Source: Myxococcus sp. RHSTA-1-4 (lineage in GTDB: Bacteria; Myxococcota; Myxococcia; Myxococcales; Myxococcaceae). Taken from it: a DNA stretch of 64,000 bases. Shown here in pieces: positions 8,386 through 16,374 of this stretch. The stretch lies in the NCBI RefSeq assembly GCF_020037125.1, contig NZ_JAIQDG010000015.1:1-64000 (forward strand), written 5' to 3'. Position 1 is the stretch's first letter, and each line of letters opens with the position of its first letter. Made by a program: the position numbers and the translations under genes. The notes under the pieces were generated by a model, which worked only from the letters and a program-made list of their open reading frames with translations, was not told the origin of the DNA and did not search any database.

Positions 8386-10053
8386 ATGACCCGACGTTAC
8401 GCTCTAGCCCTCGCCGTGCTCGCGTCAGCCTGCGCGCCGGAAGGGGCCCCGCCCGAACAACCCGACCCACAGCAGCTCGGTGAGGAGGCGCAGGCCATCG
8501 AGCCGCTCGACACTCCCTCCGAGGAGAACGCCATCCGCTTCCTGGAGCAGGCCACCTTCGGCCCGCGCCTCGCGAACGGGGCCACCACGCTGCCCCTCGA
8601 CTCGGTGGAGCGCGTGGTGTCGGTGGGCATCACCCAGTCCATCTCCGACCAGTTCAGCGCCCCGCGCTCCCTGTTCGATGGCACCAGCGCCAGCAAGGAC
8701 CTGGGCTCGCAGTTCTTCGTCAACGCCGTCACGGGACAGGACCAGCTCCGGCAGCGGGTGGCGTTCGCGCTGAGCCAGGTCCTCGTCATCTCCCAGTCGG
8801 GCATCCCGGAGAACACGAGCACCCCCGAGTCGGAGCCCAAGGTGGCGATGGCGGGGTACCTCAACCTGCTCTCCTCGCGCGCCTTCGGCAACTTCCGCAC
8901 GCTCCTGGATGCCGTCACGAAGGACCCCGCCATGGGGACGTACCTCGACATGGCGAACAACAAGGCCTTCAATACGAAGGGCGAGCCCATCGAGCCCAAC
9001 GAGAACTACGCGCGGGAGCTGCTCCAGCTCTTCACGCTGGGGCTCCACAAGCTGAACGAGGACGGCACCCAGCAACTCGACGGCGAGGGGGCGCCGATTC
9101 CCGCCTACACGGAGGCCCACGTCCAGGCCTTCGCCCATGCGCTCTCCGGGTGGACCTATGGCGGCGCCGCCTGCCCCACGGTGGGGCGCTCCAACCCGGC
9201 CAGCTATGCGCAGCCGATGATTGGCTGCGATGTGAACCATGACTCCAGCTCGCAGGTGCTCCTGCGGGGCGTCTCGACGACGAACGGGGCCGGCGCCGCG
9301 CAGCACCTGAAGGAGGCGCTCGACAACATCTTCGCGGACCCCAACCTCCCGCCGTTCATCTGCAAGCAGCTCATCCAGCACCTCGTCACCAGCAACCCCA
9401 GCCCCGCGTACGTCCAGCGGGTGGTGAACGTCTTCAAGAACAACGGCAGCGGCGTGCGCGGGGATTTGCGCGCGGTGGTCCGCGCCATCCTGGAGGACAA
9501 CGAGGCGCGTGGCCCGCAGCCGCCGCTGTCGCTGTACGCCACCTACGGGCACCTGCGCCCGCCCGCGCTGTTCATCACCAGCGTCGTCCGGTGGCTGAAC
9601 GTGCAGCTCGACACGTCCGCGGACAAGGACCCGGGCGCGAAGCTCAATAGCTGGAGCCGCGCGCTGGGCCAGTACGTGCCCCGTCCGCCCTCCGTCTTCA
9701 GCTACTACCCGCCCAACACGCCCGCGCCCGGAGGCAACGGCCTGCTGGGCCCCGAGTTCGCCATCCTCGACACGGCCACCGTCGCCGCGCGCGCCAACTT
9801 CGTACACGAGCTGCTCTACTCGACCGCGCCCGCCACCGCCGGAGTCGTCATCGACCTGAGCACCGTGCCCGCGGACCCCGATGACCTGGTGCTCTGGCTG
9901 GGCCGCTACCTGCTGCACGACACCATGTCGTCCGACCTCCAGCTCGTCGTCTACAACGCCATCACCGACCCGCGCGCCGGCGACACGACGCGAAGGAAGA
10001 AGCTGGGCTTCTTCCTCACGTCGCTTTCCCCCGAGTTCCAGATCCAGCGGTGA
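8386..10053 (+). CDS. DUF1800 family secreted lipoprotein
   Basis: A 555-residue member of DUF1800, a secreted family of unknown activity. ATG 8386 follows AAGGAG at good spacing and opens a signal peptide with lipobox ASAC. The family hallmarks are visible: an N-terminal RFLEQATFGP, the central NENYARELLQLFTLG block (residues about 205-220), an AFAHALSGWTY segment and KQLIQHLVTSNPSPAYVQRV. It is followed at once by a DUF1501 gene, the near-universal partner of DUF1800 in bacteria. The two are therefore likely to work together at the cell surface or in secretion of a product. Confidence 0.82.
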   Translation: MTRRYALALAVLASACAPEGAPPEQPDPQQLGEEAQAIEPLDTPSEENAIRFLEQATFGPRLANGATTLPLDSVERVVSVGITQSISDQFSAPRSLFDGTSASKDLGSQFFVNAVTGQDQLRQRVAFALSQVLVISQSGIPENTSTPESEPKVAMAGYLNLLSSRAFGNFRTLLDAVTKDPAMGTYLDMANNKAFNTKGEPIEPNENYARELLQLFTLGLHKLNEDGTQQLDGEGAPIPAYTEAHVQAFAHALSGWTYGGAACPTVGRSNPASYAQPMIGCDVNHDSSSQVLLRGVSTTNGAGAAQHLKEALDNIFADPNLPPFICKQLIQHLVTSNPSPAYVQRVVNVFKNNGSGVRGDLRAVVRAILEDNEARGPQPPLSLYATYGHLRPPALFITSVVRWLNVQLDTSADKDPGAKLNSWSRALGQYVPRPPSVFSYYPPNTPAPGGNGLLGPEFAILDTATVAARANFVHELLYSTAPATAGVVIDLSTVPADPDDLVLWLGRYLLHDTMSSDLQLVVYNAITDPRAGDTTRRKKLGFFLTSLSPEFQIQR

Positions 10054-10058
10054 GCCCC

Positions 10059-11603
10059 ATGACCTTCTCTCGACGCAAGTTCCTCCAAGGTGCCACCAGC
10101 AGCCTGGGCTTCCTCGCCGCCGCGGCCACGCTCCCGAAGTGGCTGGGTGAGGCGAAGGCCGCCACGCTGACCGGCTACGCGGGCTACCGCGCCACGGTGT
10201 GTGTCTTCCTGCTGGGCGGCAATGACAGCAACAACGTCATCGTCCCCCTGGGCAGCACCCCCTACGCGCAGTACCTGGCGGCGCGGCCCAACGTGGGCAT
10301 CCCCCAGGGCTCGCTCCTGCCCATCAACCCCGTGGGGCTGACCGCGGGCTCCTACGGGCTGCACCCCGCGCTCACGCGCCTCCAGGCGCTCTTCGAGCAG
10401 GAGCGCGCCGCCGTGCTGTGCAACGTGGGCCCGCTCGTGCTGCCCATGCTGAAGAGTGACTACACGACGGAAGCGGTGGCCCGGCCGGACAACCTGTACT
10501 CCCACAGTGACCAGCAGGACGCCTGGGCGAGCGCCATCGCGAACCCCTCCACCGCGGCGCTGCCGCTGGCCCTCGTGGGCAAGGCCACGGGGTGGGCCGG
10601 CCGTGTCGCGGACAAAATCCACGGCCTGAATCCGGGCGAGTACCCCGAGGTGACCTCGTTCGGAGGCAAGGCGCTCTTCGCCGCGGGCGCGGTGCGCCAG
10701 CCGATGATGGTGTCGTCGAGCGGCACGCTCGCCTTCCGCCAGACGACCGACGCCAACTTCAACGCGCTCCAGAACGAGGCGCTCTCCCAGGTGGTGGGCA
10801 TCGACAACGACGTCACGCTGGAGGCGTCCTACGGTGGGGTGTTCACCACGGCGCAGGCCTTCGCCACGGCGCGCACCACGGCGCGAGACGCGGCCTGGAA
10901 CGCGCTTCCCCAGGCCACGCGCGACGCGATTGACGCCCTGTTCGTCCCACCGCCGACGGGGAGCACGGGCTGGTCGCTGCACACGCAGCTCAAGCAGGTG
11001 CTGCGGGACCTCATCGCCGGAGCCATGCCCACGGCGAGCGGAGGGCTCGGCGTCCGGCGGCAGGTGTTCTCGGTGGGGCTCGGTGGCTTCGACACCCACG
11101 TGGGACAGCGGGCGACCCAGGACGCGCTGCTCGCGCAGCTCGACTTCTCGCTGGCGGCCTTCCACCAGGCCATGGACCTGCTCCGCGCGGAGGGCATCTT
11201 CGGCGCGAGCCCGCCGCAGGCCACGCTCTTCACGATGAGCGACTTCAGCCGGACGCTGATGGAGAACTCCGACCGGGGCACCGACCATGCCTGGGGGAGC
11301 CATGCCCTCGTCCTGGGAGACCGTGTCCAGGGGCGCCGGCTCTACGGCCCCTTCCCCAACCTGGACCTGTCGGGGAACGCGGTGAACAACCTCAGCACCG
11401 TCGACTCCAAGGGGCGCTGGATTCCCACGCTGACGGTGGACCAGTACGCCTACAGCCTCGCGTACTGGCTGGGGCTCAACACGGCCACGGAGCGTGACTA
11501 CGTGTTCCCCAACCTCGCGGGCTACGTGGCCTCGGCCACGGCGAGGAGCTTCCCGTCGTCCGCGCGCTCGTACCGGATTGGCTTCATGCTGCCGGACGCG
11601 TAG
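10059..11603 (+). CDS. DUF1501 family Tat-exported protein
   Basis: A 514-residue DUF1501 protein. The N-terminus has a twin-arginine signal (SRRKFLQG, then SLGFLAAAATLP), so it should be exported folded. Family blocks include VFLLGGNDSNNVIVPL near residue 55, GLGGFDTHVGQ near 350 and the metal-binding-looking TDHAWGSHALVLGD near 405. DUF1501 belongs to the alkaline-phosphatase-like superfamily, but its activity is not established. ATG 10059 is chosen; a GTG at 10050 would overlap the upstream stop by 4 nt and add three residues. It forms an operon with the DUF1800 gene. Confidence 0.83.
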   Translation: MTFSRRKFLQGATSSLGFLAAAATLPKWLGEAKAATLTGYAGYRATVCVFLLGGNDSNNVIVPLGSTPYAQYLAARPNVGIPQGSLLPINPVGLTAGSYGLHPALTRLQALFEQERAAVLCNVGPLVLPMLKSDYTTEAVARPDNLYSHSDQQDAWASAIANPSTAALPLALVGKATGWAGRVADKIHGLNPGEYPEVTSFGGKALFAAGAVRQPMMVSSSGTLAFRQTTDANFNALQNEALSQVVGIDNDVTLEASYGGVFTTAQAFATARTTARDAAWNALPQATRDAIDALFVPPPTGSTGWSLHTQLKQVLRDLIAGAMPTASGGLGVRRQVFSVGLGGFDTHVGQRATQDALLAQLDFSLAAFHQAMDLLRAEGIFGASPPQATLFTMSDFSRTLMENSDRGTDHAWGSHALVLGDRVQGRRLYGPFPNLDLSGNAVNNLSTVDSKGRWIPTLTVDQYAYSLAYWLGLNTATERDYVFPNLAGYVASATARSFPSSARSYRIGFMLPDA

Positions 11604-12077: not shown

Positions 12078-12701
12078 TCACGTCCGTGAGTCGAGCGGGA
12101 GGAAGCGGGCCTCGTATTCCGAGAGAAGCCCTGGAAAAGCGATGCACTTCTGGATTTCGGGGTACACGCCCGTGGAGTAGCGGATGGACGCGTAGGCGAC
12201 GAGCTCCGTGAACAGCGCCAGCCGGGCCTCGGGAGGGGTCCGCCGGACGTGGTCATGGAAGGCCAGCACCTCTCCCTCCAGGGAGAAGGGCCGCAGGTAC
12301 AGGACGTGCGGCAGGACGTCATGGACGATGCGGAAGAGGCAGTTCTCCTCCGGCGTCCAGAGGGGGTGCACGCAGTGCTCGGTGTTGATTTCGAGCCGCC
12401 CCCGCTCCACGTCCGCGGCGATGTCCTCGGGGCCGGAGTAGACGGTCCGCGTGGAGAACCCGATGTCCAGGTGCGGCCGCACGAGCGCGTGGACCTCCCG
12501 CGTGTGGTCCATCAGCGCCTGCCACGAGAAGGCGAAGGCGGGGTCGACGAGCCGGTCATCCGCGGCGTAGGCGTCCGTCACCCGCGTCGCGAACGCCAGG
12601 AGCGGAGCGGGCTGGAAGGCCGCGGGGTCCGGGTCCGCATAGTCAGAGGCGGGCAGGTGCTGGTCGAACAGCTCACGCAGGACGCTCGTGACAGGGGCCA
12701 T
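12078..12701 (-). CDS. hypothetical protein co-oriented with queD
   Basis: I do not recognise this 207-residue protein. It has no signal peptide or membrane segment. The middle contains a His/Cys/Glu-rich stretch (NTEHCVHPLWTPEENC, residues about 118-133) and VHDVLPHVLYLRPF, with four His in about 22 residues, which could bind metal. Its stop is 23 nt upstream of queD, suggesting co-transcription. Its start (ATG 12701) faces the regB gene across 133 nt. A small inverted repeat (ATCGG-N6-CCGAT, 12727-12742) lies just upstream. Confidence 0.6.
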   Translation of the reverse strand: MAPVTSVLRELFDQHLPASDYADPDPAAFQPAPLLAFATRVTDAYAADDRLVDPAFAFSWQALMDHTREVHALVRPHLDIGFSTRTVYSGPEDIAADVERGRLEINTEHCVHPLWTPEENCLFRIVHDVLPHVLYLRPFSLEGEVLAFHDHVRRTPPEARLALFTELVAYASIRYSTGVYPEIQKCIAFPGLLSEYEARFLPLDSRT

Positions 12702-12793: not shown

Positions 12794-12812
12794 GTGCGTC
12801 AACTTGACGCAC
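12794..12812. promoter_or_regulatory. palindromic operator upstream of regBA (candidate RegA box)
   Basis: GTGCGTCAA, one C, TTGACGCAC is a perfect 9-bp inverted repeat. Read as half-sites it is TGCGTC-N5-GACGCA. It ends 22 nt before the regB start codon and lies in the regB/12701 divergent region. The published RegA/PrrA/ActR site is also a GCG(A/G)C-type dyad with a 5-nt or longer gap. The same dyad recurs at 14781-14797. Confidence 0.6.
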
Positions 12813-12834
12813 TCACTCCGTGACGGCCCGGGGT

Positions 12835-14226
12835 ATGAAGGGAAGCGTGTCCAGCGTGTCGACCGACGCCCGGGCCGTCCCACCCGGTGCTCCGCTGCTG
12901 AACGCGGAGCCGCCGCGCCATGCCTACCGCAGCTCGGCCCGGGAGGTGGTGGCGCGGCTCTCCTCCAGTGCCATCGCGCTCGGCTGGCTGGTGCGGCTGC
13001 GCTGGCACGCGGCCGCCGGGCAGGCGCTGACGGTGCTCGTCGTCTCGAACGGGCTCGGGGTGGAGCTGCCGGTGGCGCCGCTGCTGGCCCTGGTGGCGAC
13101 GACGGCGGTGTCCAACCTCCTCCTCGCGCTGTGGCTCGCCCGCGCCTCCACCGTGCGCCCGGGTGTGCTGGGCGGCGTGCTCGTGCTCGACCTGCTGCTG
13201 CTGACGGGGTTGCTCGCGCTCTCCGGAGGGCCGGCCAATCCGTTCGGCATGCTGTATCTCGTCCACGTGACGCTCGCGGCGCTCGTGCTGGGCCCGCGCT
13301 GGACGGTGCTCATCGCGCTGCTGTCCATGCTGGGCTACGCGAACCTCTTCGCCTTCCACGTGCCCCTGCCGCGGCCGGCGCATGGTGGCGCCGGGGAGGC
13401 GGAGTCGCTCCACCTGGTGGGCATGTGGATTGCCTTCGCGCTCACCTCCGGGGTCATCGCATTCGTGGTCGCCCGGGTGTCCGCGGCGCTGAGGGACCGG
13501 CAGGAGGCCGTGGTCCGGGCGCAGCAGCTCACGGCGCGGGCGGAGAAGCTCGCGTCCCTGAGCACGCTGGCCGCGGGCGCGGCGCATGAGCTGGGCACGC
13601 CCCTGGGCACCATCGCCATCGCCGCCAACGAGCTGGAGTCCCTCATCCTGGAGGAGCCGGGCGAGGCACTGGAGGACGCGCGCCTCATCCGCGACGAGGT
13701 GGAGCGGTGCCGCGACATCCTGGAGCGAATGAGCGCGCGGGCCGGCCGGTCGATGGGGGAGGTGCCCGAGCGGACCACGACGGGGGCGGTGCTGGCGCGG
13801 CTGCGGGAGCAGCTCGGCGCGGCGGAGCTGGCCCGCCTCCGCTTCGATGCGGGCCCGGACCTGCCGCTGTGGTGCCCGGTGCGGGGGCTGGTGCAGGTGC
13901 TGGCGAACCTGGTGCGCAACGGGCTCCAGGCGAGTGACGCCACCCAGGCGGCCGTCACCGTCACGGCGCGAGGGGACGGGGAGCGCCTGTGCTTCACGGT
14001 GGAGGACCTGGGCACCGGAGTCCCCCGCGCGCTGCTGCCGCGCCTGGGCGAGCCCTTCTTCACCACCAAGCCCGCCGGGCAGGGCATGGGGCTGGGGCTC
14101 TTCCTCAGTCAGACGTACGCCGAGCTGTGCGGAGGCCGGCTGGAGCTGGTGTCCGAGGAGGGGCGGGGGACGCGGGTGACGCTGGAATTGCCCAGCCGGA
14201 CGGAGGCCGTCTGTGCGGCCGGGTGA
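12835..14226 (+). CDS. regB: redox-sensing histidine kinase, RegB/PrrB/ActS type
   Basis: A 463-residue membrane sensor kinase. About six hydrophobic segments fill residues 45-215. Between two of them is GGPANPF (131-137), the GGxxNPF quinone-binding motif that defines RegB. The phospho-acceptor is H251 in the RegB-style AAHELGTPLGTI box. C292, 41 residues later in EVERCRDIL, matches the position of the redox-active Cys of Rhodobacter RegB. The ATPase domain has NLVRNGLQAS, EDLGTGVP and GMGLGLFL. ATG 12835 is used; GTG 12820 is possible. It overlaps regA by 14 nt and is preceded by a perfect palindrome. It should sense respiratory redox state and phosphorylate RegA. Confidence 0.85.
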   Translation: MKGSVSSVSTDARAVPPGAPLLNAEPPRHAYRSSAREVVARLSSSAIALGWLVRLRWHAAAGQALTVLVVSNGLGVELPVAPLLALVATTAVSNLLLALWLARASTVRPGVLGGVLVLDLLLLTGLLALSGGPANPFGMLYLVHVTLAALVLGPRWTVLIALLSMLGYANLFAFHVPLPRPAHGGAGEAESLHLVGMWIAFALTSGVIAFVVARVSAALRDRQEAVVRAQQLTARAEKLASLSTLAAGAAHELGTPLGTIAIAANELESLILEEPGEALEDARLIRDEVERCRDILERMSARAGRSMGEVPERTTTGAVLARLREQLGAAELARLRFDAGPDLPLWCPVRGLVQVLANLVRNGLQASDATQAAVTVTARGDGERLCFTVEDLGTGVPRALLPRLGEPFFTTKPAGQGMGLGLFLSQTYAELCGGRLELVSEEGRGTRVTLELPSRTEAVCAAG

Positions 14227-14764
14227 AGCGTCCCCCACGGTGCTCGTCGTCGACGATGACGAGACGTACCGCGAGCGGCTGGTGCGGGCCTTCGGCCGGC
14301 TCGGCTTCGTGGCGCACGGAGCGGCCAGCGTGGGAGAGGCGCTCGAGCGCGCACGGGAGCTGCGCCCGGGGTACGCGGTCATCGACCTGCGTCTGCCGGA
14401 CGGCTCCGGACTGGACCTGGTGCGCGAGCTGAAGGCGGTGGACGCGCGCACCAGGATGGTGGTGCTCACCGGCTACGGGAGCATCGCCACGGCGGTGGAG
14501 GCCGTGCGGCGGGGTGCCACGCACTACCTGCCCAAGCCGGCGGACGTGGACGACATCCTGCTGGCCTTCGCCGGAGCCACGCTGCCGGAGGGCCAGGAGG
14601 CGGCCCGGGAGCACGAGGTGCCCTCGCTGGCGCGCGCGGAGTGGGAGCACATCCAGCGCGTCCTCGCGGACTGCGGAGGAAACATCTCCCAGGCCGCGCG
14701 GCTGCTCCGCATCCAGCGGCGGAGCCTCCAGCGCAAGCTGGCCAAGCACCCCGTGCCGAAGTGA
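14213..14764 (+). CDS. regA: response regulator, RegA/PrrA/ActR type
   Basis: A 183-residue two-domain regulator. The receiver (residues 10-125) has the acidic cluster DDD, phospho-acceptor D58 in VIDLRLPDG, and the conserved Lys in PKPADVDD. The C-terminus is the short Fis-type helix-turn-helix of RegA (GNISQAARLLRIQRRSLQ). It has no sigma-54 AAA domain, which separates it from NtrC proteins. The GTG start at 14213 lies inside regB (14-nt overlap), giving tight coupling. In proteobacteria this regulator controls respiration, photosynthesis and other redox genes; likely targets here are itself and the adjacent cytochrome-like pair. Confidence 0.85.
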   Translation: MRPGEASPTVLVVDDDETYRERLVRAFGRLGFVAHGAASVGEALERARELRPGYAVIDLRLPDGSGLDLVRELKAVDARTRMVVLTGYGSIATAVEAVRRGATHYLPKPADVDDILLAFAGATLPEGQEAAREHEVPSLARAEWEHIQRVLADCGGNISQAARLLRIQRRSLQRKLAKHPVPK

Positions 14765-14780
14765 GCCCGCGCCCACGGGG

Positions 14781-14797
14781 TGCGTCATCAAGACGCA
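14781..14797. promoter_or_regulatory. second TGCGTC-N5-GACGCA dyad, upstream of diheme lipoprotein gene
   Basis: TGCGTC (14781-14786), ATCAA, GACGCA (14792-14797) repeats the half-sites and 5-nt spacing of the dyad before regB. It starts 17 nt after the regA stop codon and ends 49 nt before the next start codon. A further dyad, TGCGCC-N8-GGCGCA (14812-14831), follows immediately. Confidence 0.6.
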
Positions 14798-14845
14798 TGA
14801 AGCGCCCCGGGTGCGCCGTTAGGTTGGCGCATGTCGGGAGGCTCG

Positions 14846-15901
14846 ATGTCCACTCCGCGCCTGGGCGCGCTTCTTCTCATCCTCGTGGTGCTGCCCGGCT
14901 GGGGCTGCAACCGGAAGTCCACCCCGGAGGTGTCCGGGTGGAGCGAAACGGACGGTGGCGTCCGGTGCGAGGGGCTCCAGCATCTGGCCTGCACGGGCCT
15001 CTATGGCGAGGGCGGCACGGGCTGGAAGACGAGGACGGTGCCCCCGGAGGTGCGGCCCTTCACCCCCGGCCTCCAGCTCTGGAGCGACGGGCTGGACAAG
15101 TCGCGTTTCATCTTCCTGCCGCCGGGGACACGCGTGGACACCTCGCGGATGGACGAGTGGCGCTTCCCGGTGGGGACGAAGCTCTGGAAGGAGTTCCGGT
15201 GGAAGGGCCGGCGCATCGAGACGCGCTTCCTGTGGAAGCGGCCCAACGGCACCTGGCTGCGGACGACGTACCGCTGGAGCGACGACGAGCGCACCGCGCT
15301 CGAATTGACGGACGGCGAGCGCAACGTCCCCGGAACGAAGGACTACGAAATCCCCAGTCAGGCGGACTGCCTGACGTGCCACGGCGGTCGCGCGGACGGG
15401 GTGCTCGGGTTCGAGGCGGTCGCGCTCGCGCACCAGGACGCGCGGGGGGTGACGCTGGAGCGGCTCGTCCAGGAGGGACTCCTCACACACGCGCCCGGGC
15501 AGGCGCTCCGAATCCCCGGAGCGCCGGTGGAGGCGGAGGCGCTGGGCTATCTGCACATGAACTGCGGCGTGTCATGCCACAACGTCAACCTCCACGCGCT
15601 CGGGAGCACGTCCGGGCTCCACCTGCGCCTGGAGGCCGGCGAGCTCGGCTCCGTGGAGGCGACGGACACCTGGCGGACGTCGGTGGGCGTGAAGTCCCTC
15701 TTCCAGACCTCGGGACTGTTCGGAGGCAGCCACCCGCGCGTCACGCCCGGGGACGCGAAGCGCAGCACGCTGCTGCACCGCATGGCCGCTCGTGGAGACG
15801 CCGCGCAGATGCCGCCGGTGGGCACGCGCGTGGTGGACGAGCAGGGCCACGCGCTCATTCAACGATGGATTGACGCCATGCCCGCCCGGGCGGGCCGGTG
15901 A
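14846..15901 (+). CDS. putative diheme c-type cytochrome-like lipoprotein
   Basis: A 351-residue predicted lipoprotein (signal peptide, then GWGC). It resembles the HNE_0200/SO2930-type family of periplasmic proteins: LQLWSDGLDKSRFIFLPPGT, WRFPVGTKLWKEF and a GYLHMNCG block. One standard heme motif, CLTCH (175-179), is present. A second has one extra residue, CGVSCH (240-245), so it may be a CxxxCH heme site or not bind heme. The start is ATG 14846, which follows GGGAGG, rather than ATG 14831. Next to RegBA and a RegA-type dyad, a role in electron transfer is a reasonable inference. Its stop overlaps the next start. Confidence 0.65.
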   Translation: MSTPRLGALLLILVVLPGWGCNRKSTPEVSGWSETDGGVRCEGLQHLACTGLYGEGGTGWKTRTVPPEVRPFTPGLQLWSDGLDKSRFIFLPPGTRVDTSRMDEWRFPVGTKLWKEFRWKGRRIETRFLWKRPNGTWLRTTYRWSDDERTALELTDGERNVPGTKDYEIPSQADCLTCHGGRADGVLGFEAVALAHQDARGVTLERLVQEGLLTHAPGQALRIPGAPVEAEALGYLHMNCGVSCHNVNLHALGSTSGLHLRLEAGELGSVEATDTWRTSVGVKSLFQTSGLFGGSHPRVTPGDAKRSTLLHRMAARGDAAQMPPVGTRVVDEQGHALIQRWIDAMPARAGR

Positions 15902-16374
15902 ACGACATGCTCTATTCCGTGGTGTTGCTCCTGCACTCGTGGCTGCGCTGGGGCGTGGTGGTGCTCGGCGTGGTGGTGCTGGGAAGGTCCCTGGTGGGCT
16001 GGCTGCGCGGCCGGGACTGGACCCACTCCGACCGGCGCCTCCAGGTGCTGCTCGTCTCCGTGCTCGACCTCCAGTTCCTGCTCGGGCTGACGCTCTACTC
16101 CGTGCTCAGTCCGCTCACGCCAGGGACGATGGAGGCGTTCCGGACCAGCATGTCCGTCTCCTTCCTGCGGTTCTTCACCGTGGAGCACCCGGTGATGATG
16201 CTCCTGGCGCTCACCGCCGCGCATGTGTCGTCCCAGCTGAGCCGCCGTGCCGAGGCGCCCCATGCGCGGCACCGCGTGTGGGCGGTGGGAATCCTCGTGA
16301 CGATGCTCCTCGTCGTGCTCGGGATTCCCTGGCCCTGGCTGTCCCACGGCCGGCCCCTGTTCCGGGGCTTCTGA
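15898..16374 (+). CDS. four-TM membrane protein, cytochrome-b-like
   Basis: A 155-158-residue integral membrane protein with four hydrophobic helices. It has an N-terminal LLHSWLRWG, DLQFLLGLTLY, FFTVEHPVMMLL and a C-terminal IPWPWL. This LHSxLRW/VEHP pattern is shared with small proteins labelled cytochrome B in Bacteroidetes. The intramembrane His residues (LHSW, VEHP, AAHV) could ligate heme b. GTG 15898 overlaps the upstream TGA (GTGA); ATG 15907 is an alternative with little Shine-Dalgarno help either way. It is the second gene of the putative redox operon and may be the membrane partner of the diheme-type lipoprotein. Confidence 0.62.
   Translation: MNDMLYSVVLLLHSWLRWGVVVLGVVVLGRSLVGWLRGRDWTHSDRRLQVLLVSVLDLQFLLGLTLYSVLSPLTPGTMEAFRTSMSVSFLRFFTVEHPVMMLLALTAAHVSSQLSRRAEAPHARHRVWAVGILVTMLLVVLGIPWPWLSHGRPLFRGF

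Follow-up and report, generated by a model that had tools for sequence, protein, structure and literature searches.

Near-invariant palindromes at a Myxococcus RegBA-like locus are candidate operators of its RegA-type regulator

Introduction

What controls a RegBA-like two-component locus of Myxococcus sp. RHSTA-1-4 whose kinase and regulator genes lie between two copies of the same palindrome? A first-pass annotation of the window (the whole 64,000-nt stretch of contig NZ_JAIQDG010000015.1 analysed here) had read these palindromes as RegA operators that provide autoregulation and control of the adjacent operon, together forming a self-contained redox regulon. We compared the promoters across 27 Myxococcus/Pyxidicoccus genomes, in each of which the orthologous regB locus was found, and derived genome-wide dyad statistics from pattern searches of the genome. 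The dyads are probably operators of the RegA-type regulator encoded between them, predicted to activate regBA, a cytochrome/membrane-protein operon and a DUF3817 gene.

Results

The window carries two exact copies of TGCGTC-N5-GACGCA, as the first-pass annotation had claimed, with the same 6-nt half-sites and the same 5-nt spacer. Site A (12794-12812, unstranded), the candidate RegA operator of the regBA operon, is a perfect 19-nt dyad, GTGCGTCAACTTGACGCAC, in which GTGCGTCAA and TTGACGCAC flank one central base, C (GTGCGTCAA-C-TTGACGCAC); the TGCGTC-N5-GACGCA core occupies 12795-12811. Site B (14781-14797, unstranded), the candidate operator of the cytochrome/membrane-protein operon, reads TGCGTCATCAAGACGCA. 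Site A ends 34 nt before the conserved regB GTG at 12847, and site B ends 48 nt before the likelier cytochrome start, ATG 14846.

The exact dyad is rare and confined to promoters. No other exact copy occurs in the window, where allowing up to two mismatches yields eight matches, the number seen in shuffled DNA; only the exact form is therefore informative. The suggested genome scan returned three exact copies in 11.2 Mb, against about 1.2 expected by base composition. All three are intergenic, 24-49 nt before a start called by a codon-usage gene caller built for the present analysis. The worry that the motif might be common inside coding regions holds for one-mismatch copies, which are mostly intragenic in this genome, and not for the exact form.

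Both sites are present at the orthologous promoters in 27/27 genomes, so the proposed comparison with related species turned up no loss. The 12 half-site bases of site B do not vary across the 27 genomes, and those of site A vary at one position of 12, the last, which is A or G. Pairwise identity reaches 92-100% in the half-sites, as against 34-47% in the flanks upstream of the dyads and 46-56% downstream, and the only other positions kept to a similar degree are those of the -10 block at site B and a few immediately adjoining the dyads. We rejected the idea that the dyads are chance palindromes of high-GC DNA as having next to no probability, because orthologous loci keep dyads and spacing in every genome at two promoters whose flanks diverge fast, even if one-mismatch versions are frequent, mostly in genes, and chance alone would give about one exact copy per genome. 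A main role as an element of the divergent gene at 12078-12701 was also rejected, because other species have a different gene on that side yet keep the dyad next to regB. Upstream of the locus, DUF1800 (PF08811) and DUF1501 (PF07394) genes lie side by side at 8416-11603 of the window.

The locus encodes a kinase with RegB features. The regB-like gene (12847-14226, plus strand) matches NF033792 with E 9.8e-80 and 268.4 bits, below the cut-off of 350. GTG 12847 is its better start, because it is conserved in 27/27 genomes, unlike the upstream ATG 12835, which is missing in several species; its position 7 nt after the -10 element suggests a leaderless mRNA. Known RegB features are a GGxxNPF quinone motif and a redox-active cytosolic cysteine near the H-box (Cys265 in R. 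capsulatus) (PMC8191878). GGxxNPF is present in 27/27 orthologs, the H-box reads HELG[TS]PL, and a VERCR motif, also in 27/27, places a putative redox cysteine 41 residues past the phospho-histidine in the 23 orthologs measured. The kinase thus resembles RegB/PrrB/ActS in these three features and in its six-helix-type membrane region, but differs in falling short of the equivalog cut-off and in having a second RegBA pair, about 46% identical, in the same genome.

The partner gene encodes a RegA-like response regulator of about 180 amino acids (14213-14764, plus strand; codon-model start GTG 14240), with a receiver domain (PF00072) and a Fis-type HTH (PF02954). It aligns over its full length to the response-regulator structure 3RQI, and its HTH aligns to the PrrA effector domain 1UMQ. 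NF033791 is its best family by far, at 180.4 bits against a cut-off of 250. Because both proteins score below the NCBIfam cut-offs, we call them RegB-like and RegA-like and claim no curated equivalog membership. The recognition helix of this regulator, RegA1, reads IQRRSLQRKL; QRRSLQR is found in 27/27 genomes and differs from the RegA/PrrA/ActR signature HRR[ST]LQR.

The dyads come close to the published motifs of this regulator family, which are YSCGGC-N5-GWCRMA for PrrA, GNGRCRTTNNGNCGC for RegR and SSGNVRDNHYSNCSS for RegA (PMC5506826). All dyads tested match these alpha-proteobacterial consensuses at 11/12 positions for PrrA, 8-9/11 for RegR and 10-12/12 for RegA. An 11/12 PrrA match is reached by 0.03-0.16% of random window stretches, and the sole PrrA mismatch is consistently the T at half-site position 5. 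The system resembles the alpha-proteobacterial RegA/PrrA/RegR/ActR systems in its Fis-type HTH regulator, its GCGNC-N5-GNCGC core, the N5 spacer of PrrA and its proposed targets, the regulator's own operon and cytochrome genes. It differs in the half-site TGCGTC, with T where PrrA and RegR have a purine or G, in a dyad that is nearly invariant instead of degenerate, in a fixed distance to the -10 element and in a count of about three exact promoters per genome. Earlier work found no strong consensus by PrrA ChIP-seq (PMC4263372), and a search in Acidithiobacillus failed (PMC5506826).

Could an unrelated dimeric transcription factor bind the dyads and control regBA and the redox genes instead? 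Many regulator families have perfect dyads, and the link from RegA to the dyad is a prediction from sequence. We nonetheless judge such a factor very unlikely, as half-site and spacer largely fit the RegA/PrrA motif, the second, paralogous regBA operon carries a counterpart dyad with corresponding spacing, and the sites have no further regulator gene as a conserved neighbour.

The dyads hold a fixed position relative to putative -10 elements. On the plus strand, the -10-like hexamer TATGAA (12834-12839) lies 22 nt past the 17-nt core of site A, and TAGGTT (14820-14825; TAGGGT in most species) lies 22 nt past site B. Across the 27 genomes this gap varies between 22 and 24 nt at site A and measures 22 nt (once 23) at site B, where it holds although the downstream gene differs between species. 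A dyad centre about 31 nt before the -10 element would sit near -43, although the RegA sites described elsewhere are frequently more distal (PMC5506826, PMC4064962). The -10 elements and transcription starts used here are predictions from sequence. Neither the site A nor the site B promoter has a -35-like hexamer at the normal distance, and the dyad position would suit a class II activator that replaces the -35 box. A sigma-70 promoter using TTGACG of site A as its -35 element was considered and rejected, since that hexamer lies 24 nt from the -10 element.

This geometry also bears on the sign of regulation. A dyad-bound repressor would block RNA polymerase near -43 until a signal released it; the dyad does overlap the position where a -35 box would be, and autorepression is a common arrangement. 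Such repression seems unlikely to us. An activator-dependent promoter calls for just such a fixed 22-nt gap and missing -35 hexamer, fixed phasing is unnecessary for a repressor, and RegR and PrrA mostly activate their direct targets (PMC4064962, PMC4263372).

Behind site B lies a two-gene operon. Its first gene (14846-15901, plus strand) encodes an SO2930-type di-heme c-type cytochrome lipoprotein (TIGR03806, E 9.4e-47, 159.7 bits, cut-off 313), most likely starting at ATG 14846, which has the Shine-Dalgarno sequence GGGAGG ahead of it. The protein resembles those of TIGR03806 operons in matching nearly the whole domain model and in having the expected two heme motifs, CLTCH and CGVSCH. The differences are its score below the cut-off, the CX3CH form of the second motif and a partner protein of no named family. 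CX3CH (in the reading frame 14831-15901) is unusual for a c-type heme, and it is kept in 4/4 orthologs checked.

The second gene (15898-16374, plus strand) encodes that partner, a four-helix membrane protein in which His10 and His94 are conserved and His106 and His122 nearly invariant. Sequence searches found no Pfam family and no match for it. Its AlphaFold model is a confident four-helix bundle (pLDDT 88.6), whose best match in the PDB is no better than E 0.33.

The gene content behind site B varies. The membrane-protein gene is the one most often retained behind site B-type dyads; some species have lost the cytochrome gene and carry the membrane-protein gene directly behind the dyad. In two genomes (G069 and G072) it is absent, while dyad and cytochrome remain. 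In several species the locus continues with genes encoding a c-type cytochrome, a 2Fe-2S protein and a molybdopterin oxidoreductase. Homologs of the operon in another genus (g7), preceded by a TetR gene, have no dyad.

Several side observations concern this locus. M. xanthus AM003 (G078; L249 3175-3735) has the membrane-protein gene reduced to its C-terminal end. Two genomes (G073, L018 4029; G079, L091 3926) carry an extra dyad, [CT]GCGTCGATTTGACGCA, just past the membrane-protein stop and with no gene start near. A record labelled 'Comamonas sp. KCTC 72670' (L171) carries a Myxococcus-type regBA/cytochrome locus, and its name therefore looks wrong.

The regulon reaches beyond the locus, which is where the description 'self-contained' fails. 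The third exact copy in this genome, site C (C42:118996), lies on another contig in the promoter of a DUF3817 gene (PF12823), a promoter with no clear TA-type -10 element. This gene occurs in 27/27 genomes, of which 15 have the exact dyad and 11 a version differing by one base; in the remaining one the dyad is cut off by the end of the contig. A fourth target appears in one species, M. qinghaiensis, where an exact dyad precedes a di-heme peroxidase/MauG-like gene and the gene of a further member of the site B membrane-protein family.

Counts of exact dyads put the regulon at about three promoters per genome. The 27 genomes hold 76 (16 at site A, 27 at site B, 15 at site C, 1 at the peroxidase operon and 17 others), so that 59 of the 76 stand at four promoters: those of regB, the cytochrome/membrane-protein operon, the DUF3817 gene and one di-heme peroxidase operon. 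The other 17 roughly equal the 19 copies of a reversed control dyad and are outnumbered by the 37 of an N6-spacer control. A wider regulon built on one-mismatch sites was rejected, since these gave no convincing further target in the genome studied. A GTDB scan for the dyad with TAGNGT found 21 stretches; none of those from genera other than Myxococcus/Pyxidicoccus had a RegA-linked gene. In a distant genus (G087; L237, C233, 1079-1754) genes for a site B-family membrane protein and DUF3817 overlap in one operon, which links the site B and site C targets independently of the dyad.

A second pair, RegBA2, has a dyad of its own. The paralogous regBA2 operon occurs in every genus member, here at C11:20042-21939 with a kinase about 46% identical to that of the window. 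A search of the genome with the full promoter architecture picked out the regBA2 promoter unaided, along with site B and one further place. The regBA2 dyad, TGCGACAAC[AT]CGCC[GA]CA, is followed by TA 22-24 nt later and occurs once per genome. It stands at the operon in 27/27 genus genomes, 16/16 of genus g6, 2/2 of genus g5 and two single genomes (G004 and G007), a placement read directly in 21 genomes and inferred from coordinates in the rest. Its half-sites are always TGCGAC / TG[CT]GGC, which sites A and B never have. With the promoter layout the same, half-site position 5 is T at RegA1 dyads and a purine at RegA2 dyads, and in all members examined the recognition helix starts with Gln in RegA1 (IQRRSLQ) and His in RegA2 (IHRRSLQ), which carries HRRSLQR.

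These differences suggest two partly separated RegA systems. We advance only tentatively that the single helix residue sets half-site base 5, Gln with T and His with purine, and so separates the duplicated redox regulons. A genome of another genus (G003, 13.8 Mb) has only the RegBA2 pair. Its sole exact dyad nevertheless precedes a homolog of the membrane-protein gene and has TAAGGT 21 nt beyond it, and a related TGCGTC-type dyad precedes its DUF3817 gene; RegA2 or another protein can thus use TGCGTC dyads. The site C orthologs of G069 and G072 have one half-site TGCGAC. Together these cases, the first combining the His form with TGCGTC dyads, make a strict residue-base code doubtful.

RegA2, its recognition helix being almost the same, could bind the RegA1 dyads too. 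The dyads might then be RegA-family operators of which RegA2 is the main or a joint regulator, the two systems cross-talking. The one-residue difference between the helices, the G003 dyad before the membrane-protein gene and the TGCGAC half-sites of two site C orthologs all fit such an arrangement. Set against them, RegA2's own promoter uses half-sites never found at sites A and B, and site A sits at regBA1 itself, which leaves a RegA2-led arrangement a possibility but not the one we would expect.

Another genus (g3; L306, L307, L309-L311; position 1501) shows a conserved dyad, TGCGACAC[AC]ATGCCGCA, with a -10-like TATGG or TATCG about 22 nt later. It precedes a gene for an MbnP copper-binding protein (TIGR04052, E 4.8e-76, G002), which at two of these loci is followed by a MauG-like di-heme gene. 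It is a likely RegA2 target.

Discussion

Several lines of evidence converge on the dyads as operators of RegA1. Conservation in 27/27 genomes, fixed -10 spacing and the 11/12 PrrA match support this reading. So do the alignment of the RegA HTH with 1UMQ and 3RQI, the same-spaced dyad at regBA2 and the rarity of exact dyads, all three of which lie in promoters. It is weakened by a kinase and regulator below the NCBIfam cut-offs and by G003, which keeps dyads with RegBA2 alone. Of the original proposal, RegA-type operators at the regB and cytochrome promoters gain strong comparative support here, while the redox role of the target genes is read from their domains.

From sequence we infer that RegA binds, that it activates rather than represses, where transcription begins, and that the signal is a redox one; the mechanism would run as follows. 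The RegB-like kinase, judging by its motifs, would sense quinone or thiol redox state and under that signal phosphorylate RegA. A RegA dimer would bind TGCGTC-N5-GACGCA centred near -43, standing in for the -35 box, and recruit RNA polymerase to the -10 element 22 nt on. RegA would activate its own regBA operon and the adjacent di-heme cytochrome/membrane-protein operon, and the same operator would drive the DUF3817 membrane-protein gene elsewhere in the genome.

Members of the RegA family are well known for the degeneracy of their binding sites. In contrast, a sharp, near-invariant operator at a fixed promoter position would define a small regulon in the genus of Myxococcus xanthus and name three uncharacterised target groups: the di-heme cytochrome, the four-helix membrane protein and DUF3817. 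The paired RegBA systems, with matching but different operators, offer an easy test of RegA specificity that changes one residue and one base. Should the proposed code hold, the Gln/His-T/purine pairing would represent a naturally evolved switch of specificity, in regulators that were long considered to have no sharp DNA motif.
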